Assembly: GCF_024679245.1 (NCBI RefSeq)
Contig: NC_090178.1
Coordinates: 27,809,955 to 27,873,954, forward strand
Source: Pseudorasbora parva
Taxonomy: Eukaryota > Chordata > Actinopteri > Cypriniformes > Gobionidae
Length of the DNA: 64,000 nucleotides
Reading direction: 5' to 3'
Every line of letters begins with the position of its first letter. The stretch's first letter is position 1. The notes beneath the pieces were generated by a model. The model saw only the letters and a program-made list of their open reading frames with translations. It did no database searches and was not told where the DNA came from. Below, one piece after another: positions 5,431 to 44,687 of the stretch. A program made the position numbers and the translations under genes.

Positions 5431-8400
5431 ATTTTTTTTTACTTGTAACCTTCAAATTCTGCATAAAAGTATATTGTTTTTCTTTAAATGCTTTTAAAAC
5501 CAAGCATAAAATGGTAGAGACTGCCTCGATTGGTTGTGATTATTTCTCATAAGCTGTTATTTTAATGTTGTATGTACGTTGTAACTGTTTTTATTTGTAT
5601 AACTTTGCTGCCTCTTGGCCAGGACTCCCTTGAAAAACAGGTTCTTAATCTCAGTGGGACTCTCCTGGTTAAATAAAGGTTAAATAAAATAAATACATAA
5701 ATAAAATATCAGTCAAAAGTAGTATTTTAGTAACAAGTAACTTTTAAAAGGACATTTATAGCACATTGCAATATGGCCTTCATTTTTGATAGTGTTCATG
5801 CTAGTTCACAGTGCATTAACTAACTTTTTATCTTAAAAGTTGTTGGTAAATGCTGACTTAACAGGAAACTAACAATAAATTATATACTTTATACAATATT
5901 TTAAACCATATACAATTATTAATCTTAGTTGACGTTAACTAATGTAGTTAACTAATGTTTTAAAAAAAAAAACCTGTAAGGTGTTATCTTTATTTTCAAA
6001 AAACAAAAGTATGAAAAATTGGTATCATGTACAGTGCTAAAATTTTTACTTTTCTCAGGTTCTCCTGGCTGAAATGGATATATCAAGAAATATAATTGCA
6101 TATTTAAAGGAAATGTAAATTTGTGGGTACAGTGACATTAACACCAGAATGTCAGAATACATAAGTATTGGAATAAAGTGCCCAGATTACACATAAACAG
6201 AGACTGAATTACATTAGCAATAGCACTGCTTAATTAAAGGGTGATCCACACAATAAAATGACATATTACCATTACATAGGCTGCTGTTCATTAGTACTCA
6301 GTACTCACTTGATTAGATATTCACTTTACAGTGCCTATGCGCATTTTTACTTCTACAAACTAGAACAGACTACTATGAAAACTACCATATGGAAACAAGC
6401 AACGAATATGCAAAGGCTACATGTAAATCAGATTTCCATCAAACTACACTGAGAGTTGAATGGTTTCTTACTTTATATGAATGTATTCTTACTTTATATG
6501 TTCAAAATGATACTGACTGGCTTTCCTGCTTTTCCCAGGTCTTTGTGCATTGACCCTGGTTCCATCACAGAACCCAGTGACAGTCGGGAGCAATGTCACC
6601 ATAAGTGTGAATGACTCCACTTACATTGTAGCTGGGACCTGGTTGGGTCCTGGGCCTAGTACAGTGTTCATGTGGTACCCAGGGGGAATTTATCAGGGCA
6701 ATGGCTACCGAGCTGGAATAAGTTTTAACAACAGTACATATCAGCTCACCTTATTGTCAGTAACTCTGAAAAGTTCTGGCATCTATGTATTAGATTCCTT
6801 TGCTCCGACCTCAATCCGTGCAGAGATTACATTAGACGTTCAGGGTAAGTTGAATAAATTCCTCTGTAAAAAAAAAAAAATGTGTATAACTTAAAACTTA
6901 TGCTAAAATACATGACTTGTATATGCCTACAGTGTAAAAAATGGTAAAAGGATTACCTTAATTGAGCTATAGAATTTGATGTTCATTCAGTGAAGATGAT
7001 TAATATATATTGGGGGGGGGGGGTAATTGCTTATTTAAATATCATGTTACGGATCCCAATCCCCATTGGCTCAGACAAATACATTTTCTTGAGGCCTGAT
7101 TATCTGTGCCATTAATATATGGGACCACTGATTAATATAAATGTAACATGGGACACTGACATTTTACCAAATATATCCTTAGCTCTTTATGATAAAATAA
7201 TATACAGAATAAGACCATTGTAAACCAAAACAACAGTTTTAATGCAATAAAATACAATCAATACTAAAATAATCAAGTAAAGACTTGTTTTTTTTATGAG
7301 AGGTTACAGGTTACGTGTTATTTTAAGGTGACATAGTCATTGTTCTTACTCAAATATGTACTGATTAATATTAGTTAATACATGTACTTACTAGAGCTAC
7401 AGTTAGGGTTTGGTTTAGGGTAGGTTACTTGTAATTATGCAATAACACTTAATGTTTGCCAAGCGATTACTTCATGCTCTTTGAATACAAAGAACATTAG
7501 GCTATGTATATAGCCTACTGTACCAACCTGTAAGTGAAGATAACAGTCGACAACAATGCTTTACGTGTATTTTGTAATGAATAAGTCCTTATATGGTGAA
7601 GTACAGATTATTTCATTGAGGGAATGCAGATAAAGGAATGGTTTGATTGTGGGAATAGTATACACTGGTAGGCCTAGATGATAGGTACACATGTTTTGAG
7701 CATACAGAAATTTTTGTACTAAAACTTTTTCTGTTAAATCGTAGAACCTGTCAGTAATGTTACTGCAGATGTGAACAGGACAAACCTGGTGGAGTTTAAT
7801 GACACCGTGATATTCACATGCAACGCCACTGGCACGCCACTGTGGTTTTCATGGCAGAACGGCAGCTCTGCGGTCAAAGCGGGAGAAAGAGTTCAGCTCA
7901 TCAACAATGGACGAAATCTTGTCATCAGTGGTGTGACGCGGTACGATGAAGGGCCCTTCAAGTGTATTGTGGTAAACAACGTCAGCAGTGGAGAGAGTGG
8001 CCAAATGAGTCTCACTATAAGCTGTGAGTATATGACAGCACAAAGTGTTTTTAATGCACTGTAATACAATCTCTTCAAAGGGCACAGAGAGGGATGGGCT
8101 GCTGACAATAACATGTTTCAAAAGCTCTCAATCTGAATTGGTTTTATGTGTTTAGATGGGCCCAGTAACCTGAGAATTACAGCCTCGCCAGAGAACATGG
8201 CATATGTTTCTGGTTCGGCCATTTCTCTGTCATGCTCTGCTGACTCCAAACCAACAGCTTCTTTTTCCTGGATGTACAATGGCAATCTTGTGAATGTCAG
8301 TGGTCCGACTTATAACCTTTCAAACACTGCTCAGAACACAACAGGACTGTACACATGCAATGCCCAAAATGCAGTCACACAGAGATATGCTACAGTGACA

Positions 8401-11400
8401 AAAACTATTGTTGTAGTTGGTAAGAACACTCTCAAAATATGGTTGTCTAAATGTTTTATGTTTACACTTATGATCTTTTTATCACCAATACATTGCTGTT
8501 TGTTTATTTAGATCCCATATCAGCAGTGACGCTGAATCCATCAGGCTCTCCAGTAGAAAACATGCCTTTTAATCTAAGCTGTAATATTGTGGGGCCAGTG
8601 GACTCCATTCAGTGGACGAAGAACGGCCAAATTATGTCTAACGACAGTCGGATCACTTTCTCCAATAACAACTTTAATTTAAACTTTAACCTGCTCTCTC
8701 TCAGTGATGATGGACTGTATCAGTGTGCAGCGAGTAATGCTGTCAGCAATGTGAGCAGCCAGGCCTACAACCTTATGGTCAACTGTGAGTATTATCGATA
8801 TTTCCAGAACATTCATGTTTCCTGTGAATACTGTATAGAGTATGATGGGGTAAGATGTCTTCCCACCATTCATTTTTCTCTTAAATGTCATCACAGCACA
8901 TTTATTAAATGGTTATTCTCTTATTAATGCATTTGTTAGGTTTATTCCATCTGAATATTTTTTGAGGTGAAATTATCACATTTTTAAGTGTTAGATAATA
9001 GCGAGCTGTGAATTTATTTTATATTGGATATTTATTTATAGTTATTATTTATAAATAAGTTCCATACATTTTTCCACATATTCAAGCTTCTTCATTATTT
9101 ATATAACTTAAATCATTAGATTTGAATCCATAGTAAAGTAGGTTTAAAGTAGGTAAAGTAGGTTTTTGAATTATAAGTAAAGTTATAATTTATATAATTA
9201 TGTATTATAAAACAGATAGTTCTGGTCCTTTATTCTGATTGGTTGACCCTTGTTCTACAAACATAGACTACACCCTTGTGGTGACATTAGTAATACTCCA
9301 CTTTTTATTCTATGAATAAAATAAATATTCAAATAAATATTTTTATGGACTGATCGTTTTATAAAAACAATACGTCCAGTGAAACCATGGTTTACAGTGA
9401 ATTCATAACAGCTAAGTGGCATTAAAGGCACGGATTATTGGCGCTTTTTTCTTTAGTAGTTCATGTGTATTTCATTTGATGTGACAACATTAATAATAGG
9501 AAGAAATGTTTCTTGAGCAGCAAATCAGCATATTATGATGATTTCTGAAGGATGGCACGGGAGTAATGATATTTAAAAAATCAGCTTTGCAAATTACTGT
9601 AATGTTTCAATTCAAGTTTATTGAATAAACTCTGAAAATATATTAAAATAAAAATGTTCTTTTTAAAATTGAAATAATATTTAAAAAAAAATAGTTTTCT
9701 TGTATTTTGATCAGATAAACGAAGCCTTGGTCAGCTTAAGAGACTTCTTTCAACAAAGTTAAAAAATATTATTATTCCGAACATTTGACTAATATTGTAT
9801 GAATCTTCAAATCTTTTTGTGCATCATTGTTAGTTATGTTTATTACAATGTAATTTTAACTTGAAACAGAAGGTTAAAACAGTTCATGTATTTGCTAGAT
9901 GGCCCGATCAACACAACAGCCTCTGGTCCAGATGTAGCAGTAGTGGGATCCAATGTGACGTTCAGCTGTTCCTCTGTCTCTCGTCCTCAAAGTCAATACA
10001 GCTGGTATTTCAGTGGCTCAAAAGTGGCCGAGGGCTCAGTGTATAGAACTGCAGCTCTCACACGAAACCATAGCGGACAGTACACCTGCACGGCCTTCAA
10101 TAACATCACAGGCATTAGCAGCAACGCCGCGGTGAACCTAACTGTACTTGGTGAGTCATTGAATTCAGTGCTTAGACTGCTTGTTTTTAAAAACTGAAGT
10201 GGCTAATTTTTTTGTATGGAATTTTAGCTCCTGTCAGCAATGTAATGGTGAATATGAACAATCAGCAACCAATCCTCAACCGTCCATTCACACTAACCTG
10301 CACTGCCAGTGGAGATGTTGAAAACATTCAGTGGATGAAGAACGGCAAAATAATGTCTAACGACAGTCGGATCACTTTCTCCAATAACAACTTTAATTTA
10401 AACTTTAACCTGCTCTCTCTCAGTGATGATGGACTGTATCAGTGTGCAGCAAGTAATGCTGTCAGCAATGTGAGCAGCCAGGCCTACAACCTTATGGTCA
10501 ACTGTGAGTATGATCGATATTTCCAGAACATCCATGTTTCCTGTGAATACTGTATAGAGTAAGATGGGGCAATATGTCTTCCCACCATTCATTTTTCTCT
10601 TAAGTATCATCGCAACACATTTATTCAATGGTTATTCTCTTATTAATCAGCATTTGTAAAATTTATTCAATCTGAACATTTTTAAATGGGATTATCACAT
10701 TTATTAGTGTTAGATAATAGTGAACTGTGAATTTATTTTATGTTGGATATTTATTTATAGTTATTATTTATAAATTCCAACATCTTCATTATTAACATAA
10801 TTTACAGGTTAATTGAGTTAAATAATTTATTTATAATCCATAGTATTTTATAGAAAAGTTATATACCAGTAATTTATATAATTATATATTATAAAACAGA
10901 TAGTTCTGGTCCTTGATTCTGATTGGTTGAGCGTTGTTCTACAAACATAGACTACACCCTTGACATTAGTATTACCGCACTGTTTATTTTATGAATAAAA
11001 TAAATATGCAAATAATATTTTTTATGGACTAACCGTTTTATAAAAGCAATACGCCCAGTAAAACCATGGGTTACAGTGAATTTAGCTAAGGGGCATTATA
11101 GGCATTAGGCATGGATTATTGTGCCTATTGCTTATAGTTCATATGTATCTCATTAGATGTTGCAACGTTATTGACAAGAAGAAATGTTTCCTGAGCAGCA
11201 AATCAGCATATTAGTATGATTTATGAAGGAGGATGTGACAATGGAGTAATGATGCTGAAAATTCAGCGTTGCAAATTACAGTAATGACTCAATTAAAGTT
11301 TAATTGATTTAATAATTAAGTTTATTGAATAATTTCAAATTTTAAAATAGAAAAAGGTTCTTTTAAAGTATAATACTATTTAAAAAATATTACTGTTTTA

Positions 11401-14400
11401 TTGTATTTTGGTCCAAAAAAGCAGCCGTGGTCAGCTTAAGAGACTTCTTTCAACAATGTAAAAAAATATTAATATTCTGAACTGCATATCAGCTCACCTT
11501 ATTGTCAGTAACTCTGAAAAGTTCTGGCATCTATGTATTAGATTCCTTTACACCGAACTCGATCAGTACAGAGATTACATTAGACGTTCAGGGTAAGTTG
11601 AATAAATACCTCTTTAGCCTATGCACACTGTAAAAAAAATATATTCATATAACTTAAAAACTTAGATAAATGTATTTACTGAATTTATGCTAAAATACAT
11701 GACTTGTATATGCCTACAGTGTAAAAAATGGTAAAAGGATTACCTTAATTGAGCTATAGAATTTGATGTTCATTCAGTGAAGATGATTAATATATATTTT
11801 GTGTGTGTGTGTGTGTGGGGGGGGGGGGGTAATTGCTTATTTAAATATCATGTTACGGAGCGCCCAATCCCATTGGCTCAGACAAATACATTTTCTTGAG
11901 GCCTGATTATCTGTGCCATTAATATATGGGACAGCTGATTAATATAAATGTAACATGGGACACTGACATTTTACCAAATATATCCTTAGCTCTTTATGAT
12001 AAAATAATATACAGAATAAGACCATTGTAAACCAAAACAACAGTTTTAATGCAATAAAATACAATCAATACTAAAATAATCAAGTAAAGACTTGGTTTTT
12101 TTATGAGAGGTTACAGGTTACGTGTTATTTTAAGGTGACATAGTCATTGTACTTACTCAAATATGTACTGATTAATATTAGTTAATACATGTACTTACTA
12201 GAGCTACAGTTAGGGTTTGGTTTAGGGTAGGTTACTTAGGGTAGGGTAGGCAATAACACTTAATGTTTGCCAAGCAATTACTTCATGCTCTATGAATAAA
12301 ATGAACATTAGCCTATGTATATAGCCAACTGTACCAACCTGTAAATGAAGATAACAGCATGATGACTGACGACAACAATGCAATAAGGATAAGGATAAAA
12401 TGGTGCACCTGTATAACTTGAAACAGAAGGTTAAAACAGTTCATGTATTTGCTAGATGGCCCGATCAACACAACAGCCTCTGGTCCAGATGTAGCAGAAG
12501 TGGGATCCAACGTGACGTTCAGCTGTTCCTCTGTCTCTCGTCCTCAAAGTCAATACAGCTGGTATTTCAGTGGCTCAAAAGTGGCCGAGGGCTCAGTGTA
12601 TAGAACTGCAGCTCTCACACGAAACCATAGCGGACAGTACACCTGCACGGCCTTCAATAACATCACAGGCATTAGCAGCAACGCCGCGGTGAACCTAACT
12701 GTACTTGGTGAGTCATTGAATTCAGTGCTTAGACTGCTTGTTTTTAAAAACTGAAGTGGCTAATTTTTTTGTATGGAATTTTAGCTCCTGTCAGCAATGT
12801 GATGGTGAATATGAACAATCAGCAACCAATCCTCAACCGTCCATTCACACTAACCTGCACTGCCAGTGGAGATGTTGAACACATTCAGTGGATGAAGAAC
12901 GGCAAAATAATGTCTAACGACAGTCGGATCACTTTCTCTAATAACAACTTAAACTTTAACCCGGTCTCTCTCAGTGATGATGGACTGTATCAGTGTGCAG
13001 CTAGTAATGCTGTCAGCAACGCGACCAGTCTGGACTATGATCTGAAGGTCTTCTGTGAGTGAACAACAATACTTTGACCTAGCTTCTGAAAGTATCTGAA
13101 AGTAACCCAGATCAGAGTGTGACCTATTCCACATCTTTGTCTTTCAGATGGTCCATGGAACACAACAATCTCGGGTCCAGCTGTAGGAGCTGTAGGATAT
13201 AATGTGACTTTCAGCTGTTCTGCCAGCTCTTACCCCACCAGTCAATACAGCTGGTTCTTCAACAGTTCAAAGGTGCATGATGGCCCAGTGTATGTATCAG
13301 GAGTTCTCTCAGTAGACTATAGTGGACAGTACACCTGCATGGCCTTCAATAACATCACAGGCAACAGCAAAAACGCCACAGTGATCTTAACTGTAAAATG
13401 TAAGTCATTAGGCCTTCAAATAATGTATGCTGTATTAATACTTTGTCAGTTCTGTTGTTCAACCGTCAGGTCGGCACATCTCTTGAGTTCTCAAATCCAC
13501 CTTATTTTGCATCTTGAAGTAAGCTATTTTCTATGAATGTGCAAGACTTCTCTTTAGGCATTATCCACTAGGCAAATAACTAGAGCAATAACAGTGCAGT
13601 AAACGGTTGGCCAATGTGTTTCTGATTATGATAATAAATTAAAATAATATGAAAACAAATACCAGTTAACAATATCAAACAGCCTTACTGTTTTTGTACA
13701 GCTAAAACACCTGAAAGCAGCTTTGCACATTCAAGTTACAAACTACTTTTTTAAAGATAAAGTGCAGGGTGATATGGAAAGTTCAAAAATTACAATACAA
13801 TATAAAACATATTTTAAAAGAGATAGCTCACTAAATAAATTAAAATTCTGATATAAGTTACTCTCTTAGTCCAAACAAGTTTGACTTCTTGCCACAAAAG
13901 AAGATATTTTGAAGAATGTTTCAGCTTTTTAGTCTGTACTAGGGAAATAAGTGGAGTTCTAAACATCACTGGACCACATTGACTTTCTGTGTATCAACAA
14001 AAACACAGAATTATTTCAAAATATATTATGCACTGTACACAATAAAGAAATGCATACTGTACATGTTTGGAATGACATGAGGGTGAATAAATGATGACTA
14101 TCCATTTATAAGATGTCATCTCTCTAAAATCTTTCTGTCTAAATTTCAGATCCAATCACTCATGTTATGGTAAATGCGGGCAATCAGCAACCAGTCCTCA
14201 ACCAACCCTTTACACTATCTTGCAATGCCATTGGAGATGTTGAGTACATTCAGTGGACGAAGAATGGCACATTCCTTTATCCTGCAAATGGAATCACTTT
14301 TTCCAGTGATAATTCCACCTTGAGTTTCCAAAATCTCTCTCTTAGTGATGACGGACATTATCAATGTACAGCAATGAACACTGTCAGCTACTCAAACAGC

Positions 14401-17400
14401 CAGGCCTATGACTTGATGGTCAACTGTGAGTAACACAGATATATTTGTAGCATGTCCATTTGAAGCAGTGTTCATGGGAATAATTTTCGATGTATATGGC
14501 ATTTTTCAGATGGCCCATGGAACACGACAGTCAAAGGCCCAAACATGTCAGAGACCGGGTCCAATGTGAACTTTAGCTGTACTGCAGTCTCTCGTCCTCA
14601 AAGTCAATACACCTGGTTCTTTAACAGCTCAAAGGTGGCAGAGGGCTCAATGTATACAACCTCAACTCTCTCACTAGGTGATAGTGGACTGTACACCTGC
14701 AGGGCCTTCAATAACATCACAGGCAGCAGCAGAAACGCCTCAGTGAACTTAACTGTAATAGGTAGGTGTTTTTTTTTGTTTTTTTTGTCCCTTCAGGATT
14801 TTTAACCCGATAGTTTTTTTTTCATATACATATTTGAAATGATAATTTGAAAACGTTATACACATTTTGCTTATATAGTATAGAAATTATAATTTATTTT
14901 GGTAATCAGACTACACTGGTTGCAATGTATGTTTTGATTTACACACACAAACACAAAATATCCTAGAGAATCATTCTCTGTGGGAATTTACACTGTTTTT
15001 GATACACTAAAAAGAACCGGCTGACGGGATTCATTCATTCTGGAAATCAGACTACACTGGTTGTGCGTATGTTTTTGATTCACCTAAAAGAACTGGGGGT
15101 TATTCCAGAAAGCAGGTTATGTAATATACCCATATATAAGAGTAAGTTAGCGGAAAAACTCAACTTTCGGTTCCAAAAATGGAGGTAACTTTCAGCGTAT
15201 GTAAGTAACCATGGCAACTCACTCTCTGAACATACCGTGCTCCAGAGCAGGTATATAACTCAAAAATGTTTGTTAATATCTGGCAATTCTGAGACAAAAA
15301 AATTAAAAAAAATTGTGAGATGTAAACGCACAATTGCGAGATAAAAAGTCGCTATTATCTTTTAAAATGATCTATTCTATGGCGGAATCAAGCTTCCATA
15401 TGAATCAGACTACACTGTTGCATTGTATTGTTTTGTGTAGCCCACAGGGACAGTTCAATAGAAAGAGACTTCTTGCAAAGATTTTACAGTACATGTATTT
15501 TCATGGCATCGCATTCAATACAGACTGCAAACTAAATAATTCAGATGAAGATAATTCCAAGTGAAGAGTACTGTCAAACGCGAACCTAGAAAGTACATCA
15601 CAGTCACACTACTAACCACAATATTCTGTACACTCAACAGATGCCATCACTGAAGTGAAAGTGACCAGTGATCGTCTCATTCCTCTGGCTTCTCAAAGCC
15701 TGCAGCTCATGTGTAATGTGAAGGGACCCTACAACAAAATCCACTGGCTTCGAAACGACTATCAATTCCAGCCATCAGACGGAGTTACATTTTCAGCAGA
15801 TAATACCACTGTGACCTTCAAATATCTGAAGACCGCTGATGATGGGACATACCATTGCGCCGCCACAAACGCACTGAAAGAGCGTGTCAGTGATCCATAT
15901 TATCTTGTGGTCAACTGTGAGTAATATAAAAAACATACATGTTTAAAACATAATTAAGGGGCCAAGCACTCAAGTTGGACTAAACGAAAAATGTAATGAA
16001 TTTGAACGACTATGGCATAATTTATATCATTGTGCTCAGAATGACTCAAGGGGCCTCATTTATAAAACGTGTGTACGCATAGATTTTATCTTAGACTGTG
16101 TGTACGTTAAAATCCACCTCAAAGTTCATATTTATAAAAATGGTCTTTGATGTGAAAGAGTGCTTACCGCTACATCAGGGTCTGAGCAGATGTACACTTT
16201 TCCCTGTGGCAGAGTAATGCAGGTATTTGGAAATCTATAAGCAGCAATAATAATTATAGTATAATAGTTATTGTCCCTAATAATAGTTATTTATCCTCTA
16301 ATTAAATTTTCTCTGCATTTATTTGATCTAAAATATAGCAAAAACAGTATTATTGTGAAATAGTTTTACCATTTAATTTACAATTTAACTGTTTTCTATT
16401 TGAATATATTTTAGAATGTAATTTATTTCTGTGATGTAAAGATGAATATATCTTGTCTTGCTATCACCAGACCAAGCTCAGTTTAAGATTGAACATTGGT
16501 CCGGGGAGTCTGCTCTTTATTTTCTACTGCACAAGAGGCGTGATCAATGAGCATAATTTAAAAGACTCTGTACGCCATTGGATAGTCCTTCTACCAATCA
16601 GACCAAAACAGGCGTGATCAATGGGCAACGACGCCTGTAATTCTCTATCCATCTTAAACCAGCTAATGGCGCGCCAGTGGATAAGCCAGTCTGTGATTGG
16701 CAAAAGTGAAACAGAAGCAGCAGAAATTAATGTACAGGTTTCCAGACTGAGTTGCCGGGCGAAATCAAATCGCCATCAGATCAGGCTGGGTTCATCCAGT
16801 CTAGAATTTATCATCATTACTTCAGTCTTCAGTGTCATATTATCCTTCAGAAATGATGATTTGATGCTCAACAAACATTTATTATTATTATCAATGTTGA
16901 AAACATTATTTAATGAATAGAAAGTTCAAAAGAACCGCATTTATCTGAAATATAAAGCTTTTGCAACATTAAATGTCTGTCACTTGATCAATTTAATGCA
17001 TCCTTGCTGAATAAACAAATATTACTTTATATATAAGTTGAAAAAAATGTTATACCGACCCAAAACTTTTGAACGGTAGTACAATGTTGCAAAAGTTTTC
17101 TATTTCAGATAAATGCGGTTCTTTTGAACTTTCTATTTTCCTTTTTTGTTTCTTTTTTTAATGTATAACATAAATGCAGCCTTGGTGAGAAGAGACTTTG
17201 TTAAAAACCTAAAAAAAATCTTAATGTCCAAAAACATATATATACAAATTAAAGCACAATATTTTCTTTTTATTATAAGTGTAAACAAATAAAAGTAAAC
17301 CAGCAGTTTCTGATCAGTTTCTGAACTCAGTTTTGACTGATATTTAGTGTACCTTAACCATGCAGCAAACATTTTAAAAATAGCCTGGAAAAATTAAAAG

Positions 17401-19619
17401 AATACCCTATAGGCTAGTTGTTCAAAATAAAGCATATAGCCTGCATATTTTTTCAAAACCCTGTTAGCATAATTACACAGCATTAAAGTTAAATTATTTA
17501 GCATTATTTAGTAGGACCCCGGTTTCGGCCTCGCCTAAATTATTTTTCTTGCCACTCACCATTCTCAAGTAAAAAATGTGGAGGTTGAATGGTGCTCTTT
17601 TATAATGATATTCTTTAGGCGGCATTTACAAGGCGGAGATCTAAAACCATTCAGCTGCACACAATTTTAAGATCATTTGTGATTTATAAATTTCACATGG
17701 CATATGCACGTTTTTTGTACGTGCGTTCATTTTTCGGAATCACGCGTACACATTTCAGAAATGATCTTAGATCATAGAACAGTTTCTGCGCAACATTTTA
17801 TGAATAAGACCCAAGGAATCTACCCAGACCGTTTAATTAGTATTCAAAAGCTATTGCATTTTTTACATTTCTTTATAGTTTTTGACCACAAGGTGACTGT
17901 CTTGAAACTTTTTAAAACTTCAACAGGGCTGTAGTGTCGACTACACATAACTCGTAACAATGCAGTAATGTGTTCATTAAACATAGCGTTTTACTCCAGA
18001 ATTCAAAATGGCGGATGCCTAAAATGGCCGACATGGGGGAAAAAGTCTCATGATTTTTGGTCAAACAATATTATTTTTTTCATATCTCTTTTATATTTCA
18101 TCTTAATACAGCAAATAATTTGTGGAGATACAGCCTCACATCCATTTTAGTGTTCTCTCTATCCAATTTGTTTTTAAAACCTTTCTGCCAGCATGGTCTG
18201 AAGGTGTGCTTCGGTTTGGTGCTTGGCTCCTAATTACTTTGCTATAAATCTGACTTTAAAAGACTATTTTGCACAAACTAAACCTCTGCGTGTTTCCTGA
18301 GCAGTTGGACCACAGAGTGTGCAGATCATTGTACATCCAGGCATTCCCCCCAAGTTGACATGTCAAGCAGTGTCTCAGCCACCAGCTGTGTATTATTGGA
18401 TCCTCGAAAACAACACAGTAGTGGGAAATCAATCTACCATAGAAATTCCTATGAAGTATATCCTGGGCAGCAATTACACCTGTGTGGCCAAAAACACTTT
18501 GACCAATGTGACGGTCTACACCAGCCAAGTCGTCAGTTGTGAGCATCAGTCCAAATTCACACAAAAAAAGTTAACATGGAGCTGTGTTTCCCAACCTTTT
18601 TTTGCCACGGTTTTGATAAGTAAAAAATTCCACGACACGCCACTATAAAAAATAATATACAGTATAAAACGCAAATAAAACGAGATATTATAGGCTAATA
18701 AAAGTAGTACTTGCATTTCATGTGAAACTTGAGCTTAAAGGAACACTCCACCGTTTTTAGAAATAGGGCTTAATCAACTTCTTTCCTACATTTAGATATG
18801 TGGGCAAATGCATTTTTGTCTCAGTGATCGCATTGTTTTATTTTGGCAGGGTCACCGCTAGCTTAGCTATGCTACTTGGGCGAAGAGATAGCGCCCTCTG
18901 TGCCCGGGTAGCAGTGCTTCGCCTGTGCTTGCCCATAATATAGTCCCAAGTCAATATCTATCTAGGAAATCGCCTAGTATAATTCTGCTTCTCTATATAT
19001 ACTCGTTGTGAATACGCAGGCCACAAGAAGTAATTAGGTGTTTTTTTGTTTGTTTGTTTTTTGATCACTTTTACTCATGCTAGTTGGCAACGTAGGATTC
19101 CATTCATTAAGCTAAGCTAGCGGTGACCCTGTCAAACTTAAACAATGCATGCACTGAGACAAAAATGCATTTGCCCACATATCTAAATGTAGGAAAGAAG
19201 TTGAATAAGCCATATTTCTAAAAACGGTGGAGTGTTCCTTTAAGTCAGGAAGGAACACAATAAGGTCATAGTATGATTTTGTTGGTGATGATAAAACAAA
19301 TTTACATATTGTCTCTGTGGGACAGAAACCTAATTTTTCAATTAAACACTGTATTGGGATACAAGGTTTTTTTGGAATTTGATCCTTTTCCACGAATAAA
19401 CTGACAACCTGTATCGGCACACTAGTTGGGAAACACTGATATAAAGGTTAATTGTAAAAAAAAAAATAGCAGAGATAGTTAGTTTCATGCTGTGTTCTTG
19501 AAGTAACCATCCTCTCTGTCTTCCCCACAGTCCCCAATGCTGCTGTCAGCTTCCAGGCGAGTTTGCTGCTGATGGCTCTTGTCACTCTGCTGTTCCCTGT
19601 TCTGGAAGAATGGCTTTAA
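5243..19619 (+). CDS. CEACAM-like GPI-type cell adhesion molecule, N-(A-B)x6
   Basis: Fifteen exons: 5243-5294, 6539-6844, 7745-8023, 8156-8419, 8512-8784, 9899-10150, 10228-10503, 12456-12707, 12785-13054, 13148-13399, 14150-14425, 14510-14761, 15641-15916, 18305-18538, 19531-19619. All introns are GT-AG and phase 1; the exons total 3603 nt, giving 1200 residues with no internal stop. Exon 1 codes the signal peptide (MGHQLFAFSFFTLICIPG). Exon 2 is an N-type V-like Ig domain without the disulfide cysteines, as in mammalian CEACAM N domains. Exons 3-14 are C2-like Ig domains in alternating A (about 92 residues) and B (about 84 residues, often starting YGP) types, giving six A-B pairs, with Cys, Trp and Y.C landmarks and many N-X-S/T sites. 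Exon 15 ends in a hydrophobic run and EEWL with no cytoplasmic tail, suggesting a GPI anchor (a very short-tailed membrane form is the alternative). The role is presumably cell-surface adhesion at epithelia or in immunity, inferred from the family. Exon boundaries and the family call are very sure, orthology to one named gene is not. Confidence 0.9.
5348..5430. repeat. (AT)n microsatellite in intron 1 of the CEACAM-like gene
   Basis: About 80 bp of nearly pure TA dinucleotides, followed by a short T-rich tail. Confidence 0.95.
8512..9780 (+). repeat. Internal duplication, block X, original copy
   Basis: The 3' half of exon 5 (from about 8630) and the following intron, up to about 9770, are repeated with high identity at about 10340-11470 (3' half of exon 7 plus intron). 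Shared landmarks in both copies: the exon text around ATGTCTAACGACAGTCGG, the intron phrase ACAGATAGTTCTGGTCCTT, and AAGAGACTTCTTTCAACAA. Confidence 0.85.
10340..11480 (+). repeat. Internal duplication, block X'
   Basis: This is the second copy of exon 5 3' half plus its intron. It makes exon 7 a mosaic: its first half matches exon 9 and its second half matches exon 5. The switch lies near 10335-10345, inside the coding sequence, and the reading frame is preserved. Confidence 0.85.
11485..11592 (+). pseudogene. Orphan 3' part of a CEACAM N-domain exon
   Basis: About 108 nt matches the last third of exon 2 (from CATATCAGCTCACC to the donor at GTAAGTTG). The 5' part and its splice acceptor are missing, so it cannot be spliced in as a normal exon. 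Differences cluster near the end: FTPNSISTE here against FAPTSIRAE in exon 2. This suggests it came from another N-domain copy, or diverged under selection before it was stranded. Confidence 0.85.
11593..12390 (+). repeat. Internal duplication, block Y' (copy of intron 2)
   Basis: The sequence after the orphan N-domain exon repeats intron 2 (6845-7560): the phrases ATGACTTGTATATGCCTAC, TTTTCTTGAGGCCTGATTA and GGTTACAGGTTACGTG occur in both. The G-run of intron 2 is here preceded by a short (TG)n, and the telomere-like TTAGGG/GTAGG stretch is slightly expanded. Confidence 0.85.
12420..12900 (+). repeat. Internal duplication, block Z' (exon 6 - exon 7 5' half)
   Basis: Exon 8 and the start of exon 9 with the intron between them repeat about 9860-10340 almost base for base. 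Exon 8 differs from exon 6 by only a few bases (for example Glu for Val in 'DVAEVGSN' against 'DVAVVGSN'). The duplication is therefore recent or kept similar by gene conversion. Confidence 0.85.
15917..18304. other. Large intron 13 of the CEACAM-like gene, repeat-filled
   Basis: No coding exon is seen. It contains a repeat-like segment at about 16450-16830 and an inverted repeat at 16916-17140 (GAAAGTTCAAAAGAACCGCA against its reverse complement). Confidence 0.6.
16916..17140. repeat. Inverted repeat inside intron 13
   Basis: Two arms of about 55 bp. The left arm reads GAAAGTTCAAAAGAACCGCA; the right arm is its reverse complement, ending in TTTTGAACTTTC. The centre has the very common cyprinid phrase AATGCATCCTTGCTGAATAA. 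Confidence 0.75.
18734..19244. mobile_element. Palindromic MITE between the last Ig exon and the GPI exon
   Basis: The left end CTTAAAGGAACACTCCACCG is matched by the right end CGGTGGAGTGTTCCTTTAAG. Arms extend over about 130 bp, through GCATTTTTGTCTCAGTG and the CTAGCTTAGC motif. No ORF. It lies in intron 14, so it is transcribed with the CEACAM-like pre-mRNA. Confidence 0.85.
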
Positions 19620-20180: not shown

Positions 20181-20223
20181 AGCAAATTATTCAGACAAAC
20201 TGTTCTTTTTATTAGCAACCTGT

Positions 20224-20229
20224 TTTATT
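20224..20229 (-). terminator. Poly(A) signal AATAAA, cxcl17-like gene
   Basis: TTTATT on the plus strand is AATAAA on the minus strand, 210 nt after the cxcl17-like stop. A second AATAAA follows at 20208-20213. The two convergent genes' signals lie within 50 bp of each other. Confidence 0.45.
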
Positions 20230-20438: not shown

Positions 20439-21765
20439 TTAAATCGGCATACTGTAGACTTTTCTGACGTTCTTCTCCTTCCTGTTTCCTCCAGTCAACT
20501 GTTGGCATTTTTTATACGTCACAATCCCCTTCTTTTGGCAAACAGCTCTCTGCTCTTTGCTGAGCATTCCTGAAAATAAAAGTAAAATAGATTGGGCTGC
20601 CAAGTTGTAAATGTAATCTTATTGATTACTAGATTTGGCAATTCATTTGACATCAAATTTGGATTTTTTTATGAGAAATTCCCCTTAAAATAGATAATAT
20701 TCATTAAAGTCATTATTGTGTTAAATGAGAAAGGCATCAAATAGACATTAGAAAAAGTGGCTTTAGAAAAGAAAAAAAAAATTGCTTCAACATAGAATTT
20801 ATTACACAAACTTTTAGCCATGAGGCTAAGTAAATAATGTCAGAATATTCATTATTGGGTGAACGATACCTTAAATGTTTTTTATTAAGATAGGAAATAT
20901 GAATCATCTTCACAATCTTCATAAGAAACTTACACTGTAAGCACATTGCGGTAAATATCTAAATGAGTAAGTCATCAGTCTCTGAATGGGACATTCACTT
21001 TATTCAAATATATATAAATATAGCTAAAAGGCAAGTAAAGTGAGTTTGTATTTTGTATTTTGTATTTAAACAAACATTGTCCCAGTGTTTCATTCTGTTT
21101 AACTTGACTGACAAAATGTTAAGTTAAATACAGTCTGGGTAAATACAGGTTGCATGACTCACTGTTTTGACGTTGCAGCTCACAAGGACAGTTCTGCTCC
21201 AGAGAAATTCTTCTTCCTATGTGAAACACCATCAATAAACTTGACTTTTTCATTTTCACCTGTAAATACTTAAGCGCATGTCAAAGTCACACTACATTTG
21301 GGCAGTACACACTATTAGAGAAAATGTAATTTATTCTGAAGCAAAACTTTCATCATTACACTTTAAGAAGCACACTGAGAGACACTTTACTACTAGTTAA
21401 TGGCTGCAAAAAATAAAACAAATAAAGTCCACAAAACAATTCAGTTTTCCACAGAATCGCAAGGTTATGCAGTAAAGGTTTGCCATACAAGAAAACAAGA
21501 GATTTAGGGCTTCTAGTATTTTGTGACCATTTTTAAAACCATTTGAGTCAATGGTGGCCACTCTCACGAAGGTTGGCAGATATGTCACTTTCTGTACACA
21601 GCAAAAGAGACAATCTTACCATTGCAGTTGCACTTCCAGACCTGTCTGGACATGACGTGACCTTTGAACACTGGAGATGTATCTGCGTCTGTCAGCTGAG
21701 ACTGGACTGCACCAGACACATATAGATATGCAAATAGATCACACATTTAATTTAATATCAAGAAT

Positions 21766-21848
<83 letters not shown>

Positions 21849-22304
21849 AATATATATATATATAAATATACTTTTTTTAAATATATATTATATTACAGGA
21901 TTTAAAAGATAGTTCATCCAAAAATTAAATTACTATGGAAGTCTGCAGGGTCCCATCAACTATTTGGTTACATACATTCTTATTTTTTGTTCAGCAGAAG
22001 AAAGAAATTCATACAAGTTTAAAACAACTTTAGGGTGAGTAAATGATGAAAAGAAATGGCATTTTTGGGTGACATCCTTTTAACAGATAGTCAGAAGAAG
22101 GCAAGACAAGCATCTTGTTTTATATATAATATATATATATAAACACAATTTAAGAACATTATATAAAATACAGTAAAATAAAAAAAAATACATAGTGATA
22201 CTGTAAATGTAATTATATTATTTATAGTTTTATTTTTTACCTTGACAGTGGATGTTAGTGGCAACCACCACAGCAAAGGCCAGAAGAATCACCTGGACCT
22301 TCAT
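20439..22304 (-). CDS. cxcl17: CXCL17-like secreted chemoattractant (fish cxcl17 orthologue)
   Basis: Four coding exons on the minus strand: 22304-22241, 21706-21620, 21216-21163, 20569-20439. All introns are GT-AG and phase 1; total 336 nt, 111 residues (human CXCL17 has 119). Residues 1-21 are a signal peptide (MKVQVILLAFAVVVATNIHC). The mature part carries CNC (47-49), CPC (60-62), then C79 and C90, a Lys/Arg-rich tail, and ends in Met-Pro-Ile. Human CXCL17 has the same order: a CXC, a CPC, a further Cys pair after 'RAC', and a terminal Leu-Pro-Leu. The gene also sits beside a CEACAM-like gene, as CXCL17 does in human. The expected role is a mucosal chemoattractant; a Xaa-Pro-Yaa end has been tied to receptor activation (GPR25) as I recall. 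Weakest point: the exon 3 acceptor. The acceptor at 21216/21217 keeps the frame; a stronger-looking one at 21259/21260 would shift frame to a stop near 21180. Confidence 0.8.
21766..21872. repeat. (AT)n microsatellite in cxcl17-like intron 1
   Basis: About 75 bp of pure TA dinucleotides followed by imperfect TATAAATATA units. Confidence 0.95.
21903..22083. mobile_element. Short MITE in cxcl17-like intron 1
   Basis: The ends AAAGATAGTTCATCCAAAAAT and TTTTTGGGTGACATCCTTTTAA are a degraded pair of the widespread 'TTAAAGGGATAGTTCACCC' termini seen intact at 55121 and 58085. Confidence 0.55.
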
Positions 22305-22405: not shown

Positions 22406-22413
22406 TATTTATA
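22406..22413 (-). promoter_or_regulatory. TATA box of the cxcl17-like gene
   Basis: TATAAATA on the minus strand lies about 100 nt before the start codon, leaving a 5' UTR of about 70 nt. The same box and flanks are preserved in the decayed copy at 30302-30485, which supports its being a true promoter element. Confidence 0.65.
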
Positions 22414-24720: not shown

Positions 24721-26343
24721 CAGTATTGTTCAAAATAATAGCAGTACAATGTGACTAACCAGAATAATCAAGGTTTTTCGTATATTTTTTTATTGCTACG
24801 TGGCAAACAAGTTACCAGTAGGTTCAGTAGATTCTCAGAAAACAAATGAGACCCAGCATTCATGATATGCACGCTCTTAAGGCTGTGCAATTGGGCAATT
24901 AGTTGAATTAGTTGAAAGGGGTGTGTTCAAAAAAATAGCAGTGTGGCATTCAATTACTGAGGTCATCAATTTTGTGAAGAAACAGGTGTGAATCAGGTGG
25001 CCCCTATTTAAGGATGAAGCCAACACTTGTTGAACATGCATTTGAAAGCTGAGGAAAATGGGTCGTTCAAGACATTGTTCAGAAGAACAGCGTACTTTGA
25101 TTAAAAAGTTGATTAGAGAGGGGAAAACCTATAAAGAGGTGCAAAAAATGATAGGCTGTTCAGCTAAAATGATCTCCAATGCCTTAAAATGGAGAGCAAA
25201 ACCAGAGAGACGTGGAAGAAAACGGAAGACAACCATCAAAATGGATAGAAGAATAACCAGAATGGCAAAGGCTCAGCCAATGATCACCTCCAGGATGATC
25301 AAAGACAGTCTGGAGTTACCTGTAAGTACTGTGACAGTTAGAAGACGTCTGTGTGAAGCTAATCTATTTTCAAGAATCCCCCGCAAAGTCCCTCTGTTAA
25401 AAAAAAGGCATGTGCAGAAGAGGTTACAATTTGCCAAAGAACACATCAACTGGCCTAAAGAGAAATGGAGGAACATTTTGTGGACTGATGAGAGTAAAAT
25501 TGTTCTTTTTGGGTCCAAGGGCCACAGGCAGTTTGTGAGACGACCCCCAAACTCTGAATTCAAGCCACAGTACACAGTGAAGACAGTGAAGCATGGAGGT
25601 ACAAGCATCATGATATGGGCATGTTTCTCCTACTATGGTGTTGGGCCTATTTATCGCATACCAGGGATCATGGATCAGTTTGCATATGTTAAAATACTTG
25701 AAGAGGTCATGTTGCCCTATGCTGAAGAGGACATGCCCTTGAAACGGTTGTTTCAACAAGACAATGACCCAAAACACACTAGTAAACGGGCAAAGTCTTG
25801 GTTCCAAACCAACAAAATTAATGTTATGGAGTGGCCAGCCCAATCTCCAGACCTTAATCCAATTGAGAACTTGTGGGGTGATATCAAAAATGCTGTTTCT
25901 GAAGCAAAACCAAGAAATGTGAATGAATTGTGGAATGTTGTTAAAGAATCATGGAGTGGAATAACAGCTGAGAGGTGCCACAAGTTGGTTGACTCCATGC
26001 CACACAGATGTCAAGCAGTTTTAAAAAACTGTGGTCATACAACTAAATATTAGTTTAGTGATTCACAGGATTGCTAAATCCCAGAAAAAAAAAATGTTTG
26101 TACAAAATAGTTTGTACAGTCAAAGGTAGACACTGCTATTTTTTTGAACACACCCCTTTCAACTAATTGCCCAATTGCACAGCCTTAAGAGCGTGCATAT
26201 CATGAATGCTGGGTCTTGTTTGTTTTCTGACAATCTACTGAACCTACTGGTAACTTGTTTACCACGTAGCAATAAAATATATACTAAAAACCTTGATTAT
26301 TCTGGTTAGTCACATTGTACTGCTATTATTTTGAACAAGACTG
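24721..26343 (+). mobile_element. Complete Tc1/mariner element with long inverted repeats
   Basis: It is 1623 bp. Left TIR 24721-24943 and right TIR 26131-26343 are about 215-223 bp and near-identical when inverted, starting CAGTATTGTTCAAAATAATA on the left and ending as the inverse with one or two changes (CAGTCTTG) on the right. It is flanked by TA on both sides (24719-24720 and 26344-26345), the standard Tc1/mariner target duplication. A single transposase frame lies between the TIRs with no interruption. Everything needed for an autonomous copy is visible. Confidence 0.95.
25058..26053 (+). CDS. Tc1/mariner transposase, intact (DD34E)
   Basis: 331 residues, the usual Tc1 length (about 340). 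The N terminus has two helix-turn-helix (paired-like) regions, roughly residues 5-50 and 63-110, separated by a basic GRKRK hook near residues 53-57. The catalytic triad is D144 (in LWTDES), D235 (in [10 protein letters not shown]) and E270 (in [11 protein letters not shown]), with 34 residues between the last two. [12 protein letters not shown] block lies between the first and second Asp. The start is the ATG after GAGGAAA, just inside the left TIR region. No frameshift or stop is present, unlike the fragment at the window start. It would cut and paste the element into TA sites; activity is inferred only. Confidence 0.95.
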
Positions 26344-28170: not shown

Positions 28171-32801
<4,631 letters not shown>

Positions 32802-33650: not shown

Positions 33651-33919
33651 GCAACGCAAAATTAAAACTTAACGGCTGTTGGACTCAACTACAGGTAGGC
33701 TACATACCTATGTAATGTCGTGGTTTGGGATATAAAATATTTGTATATTTGACAATAAAGAAAACATTTCATTCAACAGTTTGACCACAAAAAATGCTAT
33801 TCATTTTATGTATGTCGCTAAACAGGTGTGTGGTGAACGTAACCACAATAACCATGTGACTAATGCATGACGGCTCATTTTTTAATTTGTTTTCATAACG
33901 TATGTTTTATAGTGTTGAC

Positions 33920-36900
33920 ATGAAGATGAGCCACCAATCCTGCAAAAGCTTTCCACATAAACACAACTTGCCAAAGACATCCAACGACCATCACAGTATC
34001 AAATCCAAGTCTTCATGTCATGCAGCCAGTGTTGTCCACAACTGCAAACCAGCGTGCAGCAGCAGCATGAATACAGATGTGCATTGCAACTCATCACATA
34101 AAGTAAGGCGTCTTAAAACCAGGAAGGAGAGGAATCAGGTTCGAGATCAGGAGAGAAACAGGTCTCAGACACACCATCAGCACAGCAAAATAGTAGGCGG
34201 TGAGAAACCTCAGTGCCACCACATCCATCCACTGTCTTGTTCAAGAAAAGAGAGCACATTCGCTAAGCCGTTCATTCCCCAGAAACCAAGCATCATAACT
34301 GAAGGACGCCTTACCTCCATCCGAGGACTTTTCAGCCATGAGGTTAGGTCCATAGATATTGAGAGGCTAGTGAGCGAGCAAATAAAGACAGATAAGCAGA
34401 AAAAAGACCAAAGAAAAATGTCCACGACACACATTACATCACCGCTATCTCCTTTAGTAACGTTACCTGATTCAGACCAGGACTGTACACTTGATGAAGT
34501 ACAGGAACCACACCAAGAACAAGAAAACAATATGCTGCCACATGTGAAGAAGAAGAAATGTTCAAAAAAAGAGCTTACTGGAAAAAACGGTGGTATTCAG
34601 ACTAATAGAGGAGTCGCAGGACCTATGGAATTATCTAGAGAAGATGGGAAGTATGACAGAAATGCTAACAGCAGGAAGGAAGATACGAATAGCAAAACAA
34701 ATTCAAGTAGCCCTAGAGAAACTGAAAATATGGTTTTATCATCCTTAGAAAATGAAACGGTTCATCATTTATGTTCTACTCCAGTTGAAACTAATAAAAA
34801 TAACTCTCATATTTTACAAACAGACATTCTCAAGTCCCGTGATGAAGGAAACCAAGACAATGGTTCTATGAATATTCAGAGATTTGAGAAAACTCCTACA
34901 ATGATAGAATTCCCAAACATGGAAGTCCCGCAAATGTTGGAAAATCCGCAAACTTTGACCTCTCTATCTGAACTAGACTCTGGGGCTGGTCAATTAGCAG
35001 ATATTGTCAAGCAGAGGACGCAAATGTCAATGTCTTGTAGGGAAGCAGTGAAAAGGTTGGCAACACGTTTGTGCCAGGCGTCAGAGCTCCATGTGCCAAG
35101 CCATCGACGTCCCCTGCTCTCTGAGTGCAGAGAGGCACTAATGCACACTTTACAAAAAAGACACAGCTTCCAGTTAGAGAACAACCTGCATAGGCTACAT
35201 TCATTTTTGAATGGGAAGCAAACAGCCTCTCGGCTCAGCTCAGGACAGCGACATGAAGATTGTTTATCTTTTAGCCATGCAGTGGAGAACGAGAATAGGA
35301 GTTACAGCAGGAACATGGAGATTTGGACAGGTATGTCACTTTTTTATTGACAAGTAAAGTTTAAGCAAGTTCCTAAAAATGTGATCTTTTTATTTAGGTT
35401 GCTTTCATATGCTATCTTATTCATAAAAATAAAAAAACGTTGTATTATATTTTCAAAAACATTCAAAATTTAAAGCTACATGACAATTTATAGAATGAAA
35501 TAACCTTGTCTGGTAATAAAAGGGTTCAAATTATTTGTTGTTGTAATAGTATTGAAACAGTGATATTATTCCTGTTTTTGTTATTTTGTTATCATTATTT
35601 CTGACTTTGACACGACAGGCACATTTTTCAAAAGTTTAAATTTTAACAAAACTGCTTTAATGCTTATTTTTTTCTGAAAAAATGTAAAAGAAAATGTCAA
35701 ACTACTAAAGGCATTTGTTTTGTATAATGGTACTAGGACAGAGGTATAACCCTGACATTTTTGGCTTAATGCACCCCAAAAATAACTAAATTAATTTTAA
35801 TTTAGAAATTAAAAACATGCTCATCATTGAAGAGGTTTATCATTATGACCTGGTTTCACAAACATGGCTTAGATTGAGCCAGGATTAGGCCTTATTCAAT
35901 TAGGGCATTTATAAAGGTGCTTTTATAAACGTGCCTTAGAAAAAAACATTATTGGTGTGCGTCTTGAGACAAAATAATGGCACTGACATATTTTGGTATT
36001 TGTCAGTGTAATTTGCTTACAGTTAAATCAGCTCAAACATGCATTTTAGTCTGGAACTAACTTAAGCCATGTCTGTGAAACTGCTGTGTATGTATTCCAT
36101 TGTAATTTTTATATCCTGACAACAACAAAATTTGTCATGTCATTGACCTTTGTCTCATAATATAATATTTCTGAACATGATGGAAGTTTTAAATGACCTT
36201 TTTTGCTTCCTAGACAGTGCCATGCAGCACGACTACTTAGCAGAGGAAGTTAGGCTGGACTTGGAAAGAGGAGATTCCACCAGGAAACGTAGGATACAAG
36301 AGTGGAACACCTCTTTCCCTCCATTCTCTCTTGAAGAACCACGACAATCACACACGGACATGGTGAGTCAGTGAAATCAGACAAACATGTAATGTCTCTA
36401 AACAAAAAAGCAAAGAATCAAGTCCAAATAATACCAAAGTTGTCATAAACTAGACTATTACAGAGGAAAGAAAATGTTACAACTTGCAGTTCAGGACTCT
36501 ATGGCTTATTTTTGCATTTGAATTTGATTGGTCAGTCTTTGCAGTTTGACCAGTGGAGGGCAGATAAATTGTCTCAGGATTGCTTCAGAGCTCAGCATCA
36601 TCCCAGCAGACACCTCTTTAACCAGAGCCAGACCTTTACCCAGCATGCCGTCCCTATGCACACAGCTCCCACCTGGCTTGATCATCCTGTGAACTTCTAT
36701 TCCCAGCAGCAGTCACTGAGCACAGGGGAGAGTTTAGAAAGTGTCAATTTAGATCTCTCCAGAATCTCTCAACAGTGTACTGAAGAAACAGATCTTAATT
36801 TTAATTCACAGCACATATATGAGAGCAGAAAACAAAAACCACAAGAACCACCGTTTGAAGGATCCAGATTCTGGTCCCATCAGCAGAAAGGTCGGGATGA

Positions 36901-39008: not shown

Positions 39009-39051
39009 GGGCATCAGGTAATACACTTTCAGGGCATCAGGTAATACACTT
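39009..39051. repeat. 23-bp tandem duplication covering the TLR stop
   Basis: GGGCATCAGGTAATACACTT occurs at 39009-39028 and again at 39032-39051, separated by TCA, which is the TLR stop codon on the minus strand. The downstream copy is therefore a non-coding echo of the last codons. Confidence 0.9.
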
Positions 39052-41986: not shown

Positions 41987-42089
41987 ATTTTTCAGTTCCA
42001 CTTTTATATGCCTTCATCAAAGACCAACACAACAAGGATCTTCACTCAGTATGAGCAGCACCTAAATCCAATACTGAGAGTTTATCACA

Positions 42090-43078: not shown

Positions 43079-44687
43079 TTAGCCACTCGCCTTCTGTTCT
43101 CGAGCCATCTGACAGAGTCCGCAGAAAGGACAGCAGGTCATGATCACCCAGTCATCACAGACAGAGCCCTAAAAGACACAAGGCAATACTGCAGTGCTAG
43201 TCTCTCAAACCAGTGCTATGAAATGATAGATTTCAGCAGGAATTACAACACCTACATCAACATCAGAAAAAGCAATAATCAATGCTGAAAAATATTTTTA
43301 TTGCATGGCCTACATTAATACGATATTTGTCACGGATGCTGGTTCTCAATGCAATCATAGCTCCAGGTAGGAAGGGCAAACAGCAGCTGTCACCATTATC
43401 CTGTGCCACCTTACAACCCAAGATGCAAGGAATAAATGCCCCGCACAGACCTGAGGAACAAACCAGTGTCAGAATTCACACTTTTTTTTTTTTTGCAATA
43501 TGAGGCTTGTGAGGTTCAAGCCACTTACTCATCAAATCAAAGTTCATTAAGTTGTACTCAAGTTGTTCCAAACCTGTTTGTATTTCTTATTTTTCGCTGG
43601 ACCACTGACTGTCATTGTATGGACAAACAAATATTTTTTTTGTCCATCAACAAAAAAACTTAAAAAAGAATTCTTTAAAGAAAGTCACACAGGATTAAAA
43701 TGACATGAGTAAATGTATTTATTTTTAGGGAAGAATTTTCATTTTTAGTGAAGCAACTCCTTTAACAAATTACCAAATGAATACCCATGATTTACTCACC
43801 CTCAAGTCATATATGACATTATTCTTTCAGACGAATAAAAGTGTTATTAAAAATGTCCTGGCTCTTCCCAGCTTTATAAATTGTTGTTCTGCTTTTGAAG
43901 TCCATAAAAATACATCTATCCATCAAATAACGTGCTCCACATGGGCTAGGGGGGTTAATAAACACCTTCTGAAGCAAAAAAAAAAAAGTTTGTGTAAGAA
44001 AAATATCCATATTTAAATCTTTTTGAATTAAAGTTCCGATCGTCGTCCGTGGAAAAGTGTTGAAAGTTCCTTCTCGGAGTTTAAGATGCGTACTCGATGT
44101 CTGACGCGTATAAACGCCTTTGAACTCCAGAGGCACTTTCAACACTTTTCCCATAAACTGAATACAGAAGGCGATCGGCCGAAACGTTACTTTATAAAGC
44201 TTTAAATGTTTATATTTTTCTTACACAAACGCATCAGTTCACTTCAGAAGGCATTTATTAACCTCCCGGAGGGCGTGGAGCACGTTATTTGATGAACAGA
44301 TTTTATGGACTTCAAAAACAGAACAACAATCACTGCCATTATAAATCTTGGATTAGCCAGGACTTTTTTAATATAACTCAACATTTATTCATCTGAAAGA
44401 AGAATGTCATATACACCTAAGATGACTTGAGGGTGAGTAAGTCATGGGCTTACTCTTTTTCATGAGTAAGTCATGGGCTTACTCAATTTTCATTTTTGGG
44501 TGAACTAACCCTTTAGGCAAAATACATTTACATTAGAAAACTCTCTCTTTCTCTCTCACACACATACACACTCACAAATGCCGCAGTCGTCGCAACAGTC
44601 ACAGACATCAGTGCTCCAGTGAGAAACGGTGTAGCTGGTTACAGTCATTTGTGGCTGGGAAGTCATTGCTTCAGTTTGATATGACAT
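43079..44687 (-). CDS. cnfn: Cornifelin-like protein (PLAC8/Cys-rich family)
   Basis: Three coding exons on the minus strand: 44687-44576, 43450-43314 and 43168-43079 (phase 1, then phase 0), total 339 nt, 112 residues, the same length as human cornifelin. The protein starts MSYQTEAMTSQPQ, then W24-S-T-D, a Cys-rich block (VCDCCDDCGICLCG), CCLPFLPG, a RTSIRDKYRI segment and NGSVCDDW, ending CCPFCGLCQMARE, which lines up with human cornifelin's GSVGHDW and ALCQMAREL. PLAC8-family proteins are small Cys-rich proteins; cornifelin is part of the cornified envelope in mammals, so the fish role, probably epithelial, is inferred. The gene is interrupted in intron 1 by a palindromic MITE. Its position near the pafah1b3/prr19 pair fits CNFN in human 19q13.2, but fish have several plac8-like paralogues. 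Confidence 0.9.
43690..44516. mobile_element. Palindromic MITE in cnfn-like intron 1
   Basis: The two arms share, in inverse order: TACTCACCCTCAAGTCAT, CTGGCTCTTCCCAGCTTTAT, TTTGAAGTCCATAAAA, ATCAAATAACGTGCTCCAC and TTAATAAACACCTTCTGAAG. The unpaired core (about 44030-44160) contains a second small inverted repeat around GAAAAGTGTTGAAAG. It is a full copy of the family whose half-copies lie at 3494, 53610 and 62930. Confidence 0.85.

Follow-up and report, generated by a model that had tools for sequence, protein, structure and literature searches.

A four-exon gene of Pseudorasbora parva, very probably the fish CXCL17 known in zebrafish as zgc:158701

The window analysed here, a stretch of 64,000 nucleotides of DNA from Pseudorasbora parva, the topmouth gudgeon (order Cypriniformes), contains, in order of increasing coordinate, frames with Ig domains, zgc:158701, a Tc1-type transposase, pafah1b3, prr19, a Toll-like receptor, a cnfn-like PLAC8 gene and a CXCR3-like receptor (Table 1). 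Four of the five Ig frames exceed the curated cut-off, the frame at 18301-18645 lying below it, and they are ceacam-like; human CXCL17 lies beside CEACAM genes, as stated in a preliminary description of this DNA made from its letters. Among the pafah1b3-like exons, which carry GDSL and FGIGGD motifs, the one at 28174-28452 gives a match (2.2e-24) to platelet-activating factor acetylhydrolase Ib subunits; its Pfam GDSL match is below the cut-off. Domain content and the published zebrafish gene order suggest the names ceacam, cnfn and pafah1b3, the last in preference to another subunit. In humans, too, PRR19 adjoins PAFAH1B3.

Table 1. Coordinates of zgc:158701 and its neighbours in the window
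Feature	Position	Strand	Description
ceacam-like gene or genes rich in Ig domains	7738..18645	+	five open frames match Ig families
Two AATAAA polyadenylation-type signals	20208..20229 (starting at 20229 and 20213)	-	consensus match only
cxcl17 (zgc:158701) exon 4	20439..20569	-	131 bases; encodes Cys 79, Cys 90, the basic tail and the terminal Met-Pro-Ile; contains the stop codon
cxcl17 (zgc:158701) exon 3	21163..21216	-	54 bases; CPC pair (Cys 60, 62)
cxcl17 (zgc:158701) exon 2	21620..21706	-	87 bases; linker and CNC pair (Cys 47, 49); borders set by identity of product and P0001
cxcl17 (zgc:158701) exon 1	22241..22304	-	64 bases; start codon, hydrophobic signal-like residues 1-21; 100% match to P0001 residues 1-21
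TATAAA, possible promoter element	22408..22413	-	consensus match only; 109 bases upstream of start codon
pafah1b3-like exons	28174..32572	-	28174-28452, 31366-31482 and 32483-32572 among them; edges by eye
prr19-like gene	33899..35347	+	PF15455 Proline-rich 19, 42.1 bits against a cut-off of 27
cnfn-like PLAC8 gene, three exons	43079..44687	-	PF04749 PLAC8, 2.9e-17, 63.8 bits against a cut-off of 34.4

Several other frames accompany these genes. A further Ig-like frame, recognized by eye only, begins at 6517. The Tc1-type transposase frame (25046-26050) runs for 335 codons with no internal stop, and between prr19 and the cnfn-like gene lies a Toll-like receptor frame (39032-42013) that spans about 990 codons in one exon and has TLR13 as its best solved match. 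A chemokine-receptor frame in one piece (56873-57994) is situated about 35 kb from zgc:158701 and has CXCR3 as its nearest solved match. Its identification as GPR25 was considered and rejected, given that the best solved matches are to CXCR3 and that identity to the human GPR25 sequence used is 32%.

The four exons of zgc:158701 have GT-AG borders and join without interruption into 336 bases; these encode 111 residues, and the stop codon has its last base at 20439. All three introns are in phase 1 (1, 1, 1). The minus-strand exons, matching phases and 111-residue product of the preliminary description are thereby confirmed, and its interval, 20439..22304, is the exact span of the coding sequence. 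Exon 3 could be skipped in frame because it is 54 bases long and has phase 1 on both sides. In the fish alignment described below, a protein from Phoxinus (P0013) lacks approximately the exon 3 stretch, and splice variants are mentioned for some fish CXCL17 homologues (PMC12905490). The TATAAA element and the two AATAAA signals, the latter 210 and 226 bases past the stop codon, are consensus matches only and are compatible with the ends of the gene. When the P. parva protein was compared with the whole assembly (1,228,657,085 bases in 79 contigs, the window being on contig 7) at E up to 10, it matched only these four exons; no second zgc:158701 copy was found in the 1.23 Gb at this sensitivity.

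A protein search returned seven proteins, the top match being P0001, 'uncharacterized protein zgc:158701 [Pseudorasbora parva]', with 111 residues and 100% identity over 100% of the length; the product of exon 4 accounts for residues 70-111 of this record, again at 100%. The gene is already annotated by NCBI under a placeholder name and without a function. The expectation that it would easily be missed by annotation is therefore not borne out, function alone being absent from the record. A profile search with the P. parva protein found 17 proteins, 16 of which were aligned, P0017 (70 residues, E 4e-3) being excluded. Judging by the species names, we take all 16 to come from cypriniform fish. 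Half of them (8/16) bear the name zgc:158701 in NCBI. The MPI end is present in 13/16 and a penultimate Pro in 15/16, and the second cysteine pair is CPC in 13 proteins, CTC in two and absent from one. A self-written pattern of six cysteines plus tail is found in 13/16 proteins if Thr is allowed before Pro and in 12/16 otherwise, the difference being P0009, which ends in TPF. Three proteins fail either way, namely P0011 (NPI end), P0013 (second CXC pair missing) and P0016 (truncated). In a tblastn comparison of the 16 proteins with the window, 63 of 185 matches fell in the locus and 122 elsewhere; the best of those outside it had E = 0.13, so that all significant matches are at the zgc:158701 locus.

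The first 20 residues of the P. parva product are hydrophobic by eye and signal-like. From residue 21 onwards the computed pI is 9.94, with 18 K+R against 6 D+E. Cysteines occupy positions 20 (inside the hydrophobic start), 47, 49, 60, 62, 79 and 90. The chain ends in Met-Pro-Ile, an X-Pro-Y tripeptide in which X and Y are both large and aliphatic. The translation thus contains the CXC, the CPC, the third cysteine pair and the terminal tripeptide of the preliminary description, in a six-cysteine CXC-CXC-C-C arrangement within a mature peptide of fewer than 200 residues. No solved structure matched the protein at E up to 10. AlphaFold2, run on the 16-sequence alignment, gives a poor model (mean pLDDT 57.1, pTM 0.32), with helices at 3-25, 61-70, 73-81 and 87-94 and no strands; the AlphaFold model of donkey CXCL17 is as poor (mean pLDDT 57.1, pTM 0.37) and likewise strandless. 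The absence of strands from both models is weak evidence because their confidence is low. The model of zebrafish CXCL17 is reported to be of low confidence as well (PMC12905490).

A phylogenetic study of 2024 regarded CXCL17 as mammal-specific and unrelated to canonical chemokines (PMC10792014), which is the long-standing view mentioned in the preliminary description. This view is overturned by a paper of January 2026 stating that zebrafish zgc:158701 (B0S594) encodes CXCL17, designated Dr-CXCL17 (PMC12905490), and the preliminary description is right in mentioning recent reports of non-mammalian copies and of GPR25 as receptor. According to that paper, the zebrafish gene comprises four exons separated by three introns and encodes a secreted protein of 109 residues that has cysteines at 47, 49, 60, 62, 80 and 91 and ends in Leu-Pro-Ile; on chromosome 16 it is flanked by pafah1b3 and ceacam1, with cnfn nearby, an arrangement similar to the surroundings of human CXCL17, and its expression was shown through cDNA cloning. 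The protein activates zebrafish GPR25 with an EC50 of about 100 nM, displaces a tracer from this receptor with an IC50 of about 380 nM and draws transfected cells in chemotaxis tests. Removal of its last three residues abolishes or nearly abolishes activation, binding and chemotaxis, leaving minimal activity. The authors' criteria selected 2/795 small secreted zebrafish proteins, and several fish homologues were found through BLAST (all PMC12905490). Among the matches listed in our literature search, we saw no further paper devoted to fish CXCL17. A lamprey CXCL8 paper mentions CXCL17; an earlier report of lamprey CXCL17 is attributed to a confusion with IL17 (PMC12905490).

The P. parva gene shares with Dr-CXCL17 the four exons, the CXC-CXC-C-C order with the first four cysteines at identical positions (47, 49, 60, 62), the X-Pro-Ile end, the neighbours pafah1b3 and ceacam, and the NCBI name; its product begins with a putative signal peptide, as Dr-CXCL17 begins with a signal peptide. 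The proteins differ in length (111 residues in P. parva against 109), in the last two cysteines, which lie one position later in zebrafish, and in the final tripeptide, MPI against LPI. The published address of a four-exon gene, with pafah1b3 and ceacam1 on either side and cnfn close by, is found again in the window, with neighbour names that partly follow the published order. The zebrafish zgc:158701 sequence was absent from the matches of both the protein search and the profile search, and the link to the zebrafish gene consequently runs through the NCBI name and the matched features rather than through a direct alignment. Membership of the same sequence family, indicated by 100% identity to the P. 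parva record of that name, points to orthology.

We consider it very probable that the four exons are the P. parva orthologue of zebrafish zgc:158701, i.e. fish CXCL17, a secreted basic peptide that signals through GPR25. In P. parva itself this identification rests on the gene structure, the identity to the annotated protein, the cysteine pattern, the tail, the lack of a detected second copy, and the neighbourhood. Receptor function was assayed in zebrafish Dr-CXCL17, whereas the P. parva protein is known by its sequence and gene anatomy. By analogy with the zebrafish orthologue, the P. parva peptide would bind and activate GPR25 through its last three residues. The product would carry a signal peptide, and its cleavage would release from the cell a basic peptide some 85-90 residues long, whose six cysteines probably form three disulfides. 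Its positive charge could hold it on glycosaminoglycans near the producing cell, and the Met-Pro-Ile end would enter the GPR25 pocket on leukocytes, which the ensuing signalling would draw in; these receptor steps are modelled on the zebrafish protein. The gene is already known, its protein being in NCBI and the identity of its zebrafish orthologue in print since January 2026. It is not a new discovery, because the zebrafish counterpart was published as CXCL17 at that date (PMC12905490).

The relationship with mammalian CXCL17 is a different matter. The P. parva protein, putatively secreted like mammalian CXCL17, has in common with it six cysteines in the order CXC-CPC-C-C and an X-Pro-Y end (a pattern present in 34/35 of the mammalian proteins checked), and the fish and mammalian genes have similar neighbours (PMC12905490). 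They differ in cysteine spacing, the two pairs being separated by 10 residues in the P. parva protein and by 22 in the mammalian CXCL17 P0018, and they show no detectable sequence similarity. BLASTP, with E allowed up to 100, aligned no part of the P. parva protein with a monkey CXCL17. The Pfam CXCL17 family PF15211 matched 0/16 fish proteins at E up to 10; the weak matches that did appear, with best E from 0.031 to 0.089, were to Megourin (2/16), Toddler, ParE_like and DUF617 (1/16 each) and are taken for chance. Toddler is an apelin receptor ligand, and its match in one relative (E 0.042) is most likely fortuitous; some non-mammalian GPR25s are weakly activated by apelin and apela (PMC12905490). 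PF15211 had no match over the cut-off in the P. parva genome, the single match having E 1.5, a stop inside and a position on another contig; 14 control genomes also lacked a match, so this search has no positive control. The human CXCL17 sequence used had one match among solved structures, a polygalacturonase at E 0.53.

Profile comparison, proposed in the preliminary description as a check against CXCL17, did not connect the two groups either. The mammalian alignment comprised 35 of the 85 proteins returned. In hhalign, the fish and mammalian profiles were paired with a probability of 9.7% over eight columns around the CXC. A second comparison with 13 fish rows (P0007, P0013 and P0016 of the 16 being left out) gave a probability of 2.15% and a local score of 18.01, which was reached by 3/100 column shuffles; shuffling columns is a lenient control, as it also breaks the CXC and CPC pairs. 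The global mode produced a 3-column alignment matched by 100/100 shuffles and is uninformative. When the profiles are forced together, CXC faces CXC, CPC faces CPC and the tail prolines are in register, but the third pair is not: a gap lies opposite fish Cys 79, the partner of fish Cys 90 is mammalian Cys 103 (the fifth), and fish Asn 97 stands against mammalian Cys 110. BLASTP, Pfam, and hhalign with and without shuffles all leave fish-mammal CXCL17 homology undetected in sequence; consequently, mammalian orthology rests on the address, on the order of the cysteines and the architecture, and on the published receptor function. Calling the gene a CXCL17 orthologue is supported with respect to the published zebrafish counterpart, whose cysteine pattern, tail motif, exon number and neighbours it matches; with respect to mammals, sequence does not establish it.

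This silence of the sequence counts in favour of a rival reading, in which the fish protein, orthologous to zebrafish zgc:158701 and acting on GPR25, is not mammalian CXCL17 by descent and has converged on the X-Pro-Y tail. The unlike cysteine spacing, with its third pair out of register, speaks in the same direction, as does a second GPR25 ligand of zebrafish, CXCL17-like (si:dkey-112a7.5). The latter resembles zgc:158701 in being a small secreted GPR25 agonist with four exons and an X-Pro-Y end, but has the cysteine order CXC-C-CXC-C and lies on another chromosome, and its authors consider an independent origin possible (PMC12905490). We nevertheless find convergence unlikely. The order of the cysteines is that of mammals, down to the CPC of the P. 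parva protein, and the vicinity of cnfn, pafah1b3 and ceacam1 around the zebrafish gene resembles the human CXCL17 arrangement (PMC12905490), with which the window agrees. Moreover, of the two zebrafish proteins that satisfied the published criteria, one is at the expected address (PMC12905490); since merely 2/795 did so, its presence there by chance is improbable. A history in which GPR25 has more than once recruited unrelated secreted, basic, cysteine-bearing X-Pro-Y peptides, the receptor and the tail persisting while the body of the ligand is replaced, is likewise unlikely in our assessment.

Two other readings would remove the gene from the CXCL17 question altogether. Small size, basic charge, a hydrophobic start and a CXC motif would also suit an ordinary CXC chemokine with an IL8-like fold that happens to be located here. 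Against this, the protein has six cysteines in a different order after the signal region; no IL8-family match occurs among the Pfam families listed for any of the 16 fish proteins, the predicted model, for what a mean pLDDT of only 57.1 is worth, has no strands, and published clustering separates CXCL17 from canonical chemokines (PMC10792014). We regard this reading as very improbable. Less credible still, to the point of being negligible, is that the exons are chance open frames or a dead gene, a suspicion that their shortness, the high variability of the family and the truncation of one relative might raise. The product matches an annotated protein exactly, and cysteines and tail are largely conserved in its aligned relatives. 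That these 111 residues form the NCBI protein of P. parva, and that 15 further cypriniform proteins align with it, excludes chance.

Fish CXCL17 remains our preferred identification of the P. parva gene, whose sequence and neighbourhood independently agree with the very recently published claim of an origin of CXCL17 as far back as fish. The window supplies one more marker of the locus, prr19, and the 16-member cypriniform alignment is a possible starting point for searching other vertebrates. If fish and mammalian CXCL17 descend from one gene, they illustrate strongly how the body of a ligand can change past recognition while its tail and address are kept; if they do not, they represent a case of convergence on one receptor. 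Within the alignment, Siphateles boraxobius contributes two separately named loci with near-identical proteins (P0003 and P0006), the latter having a 14-residue insertion preceding the sixth cysteine; this pair may reflect a duplication in that lineage or an artefact of annotation.
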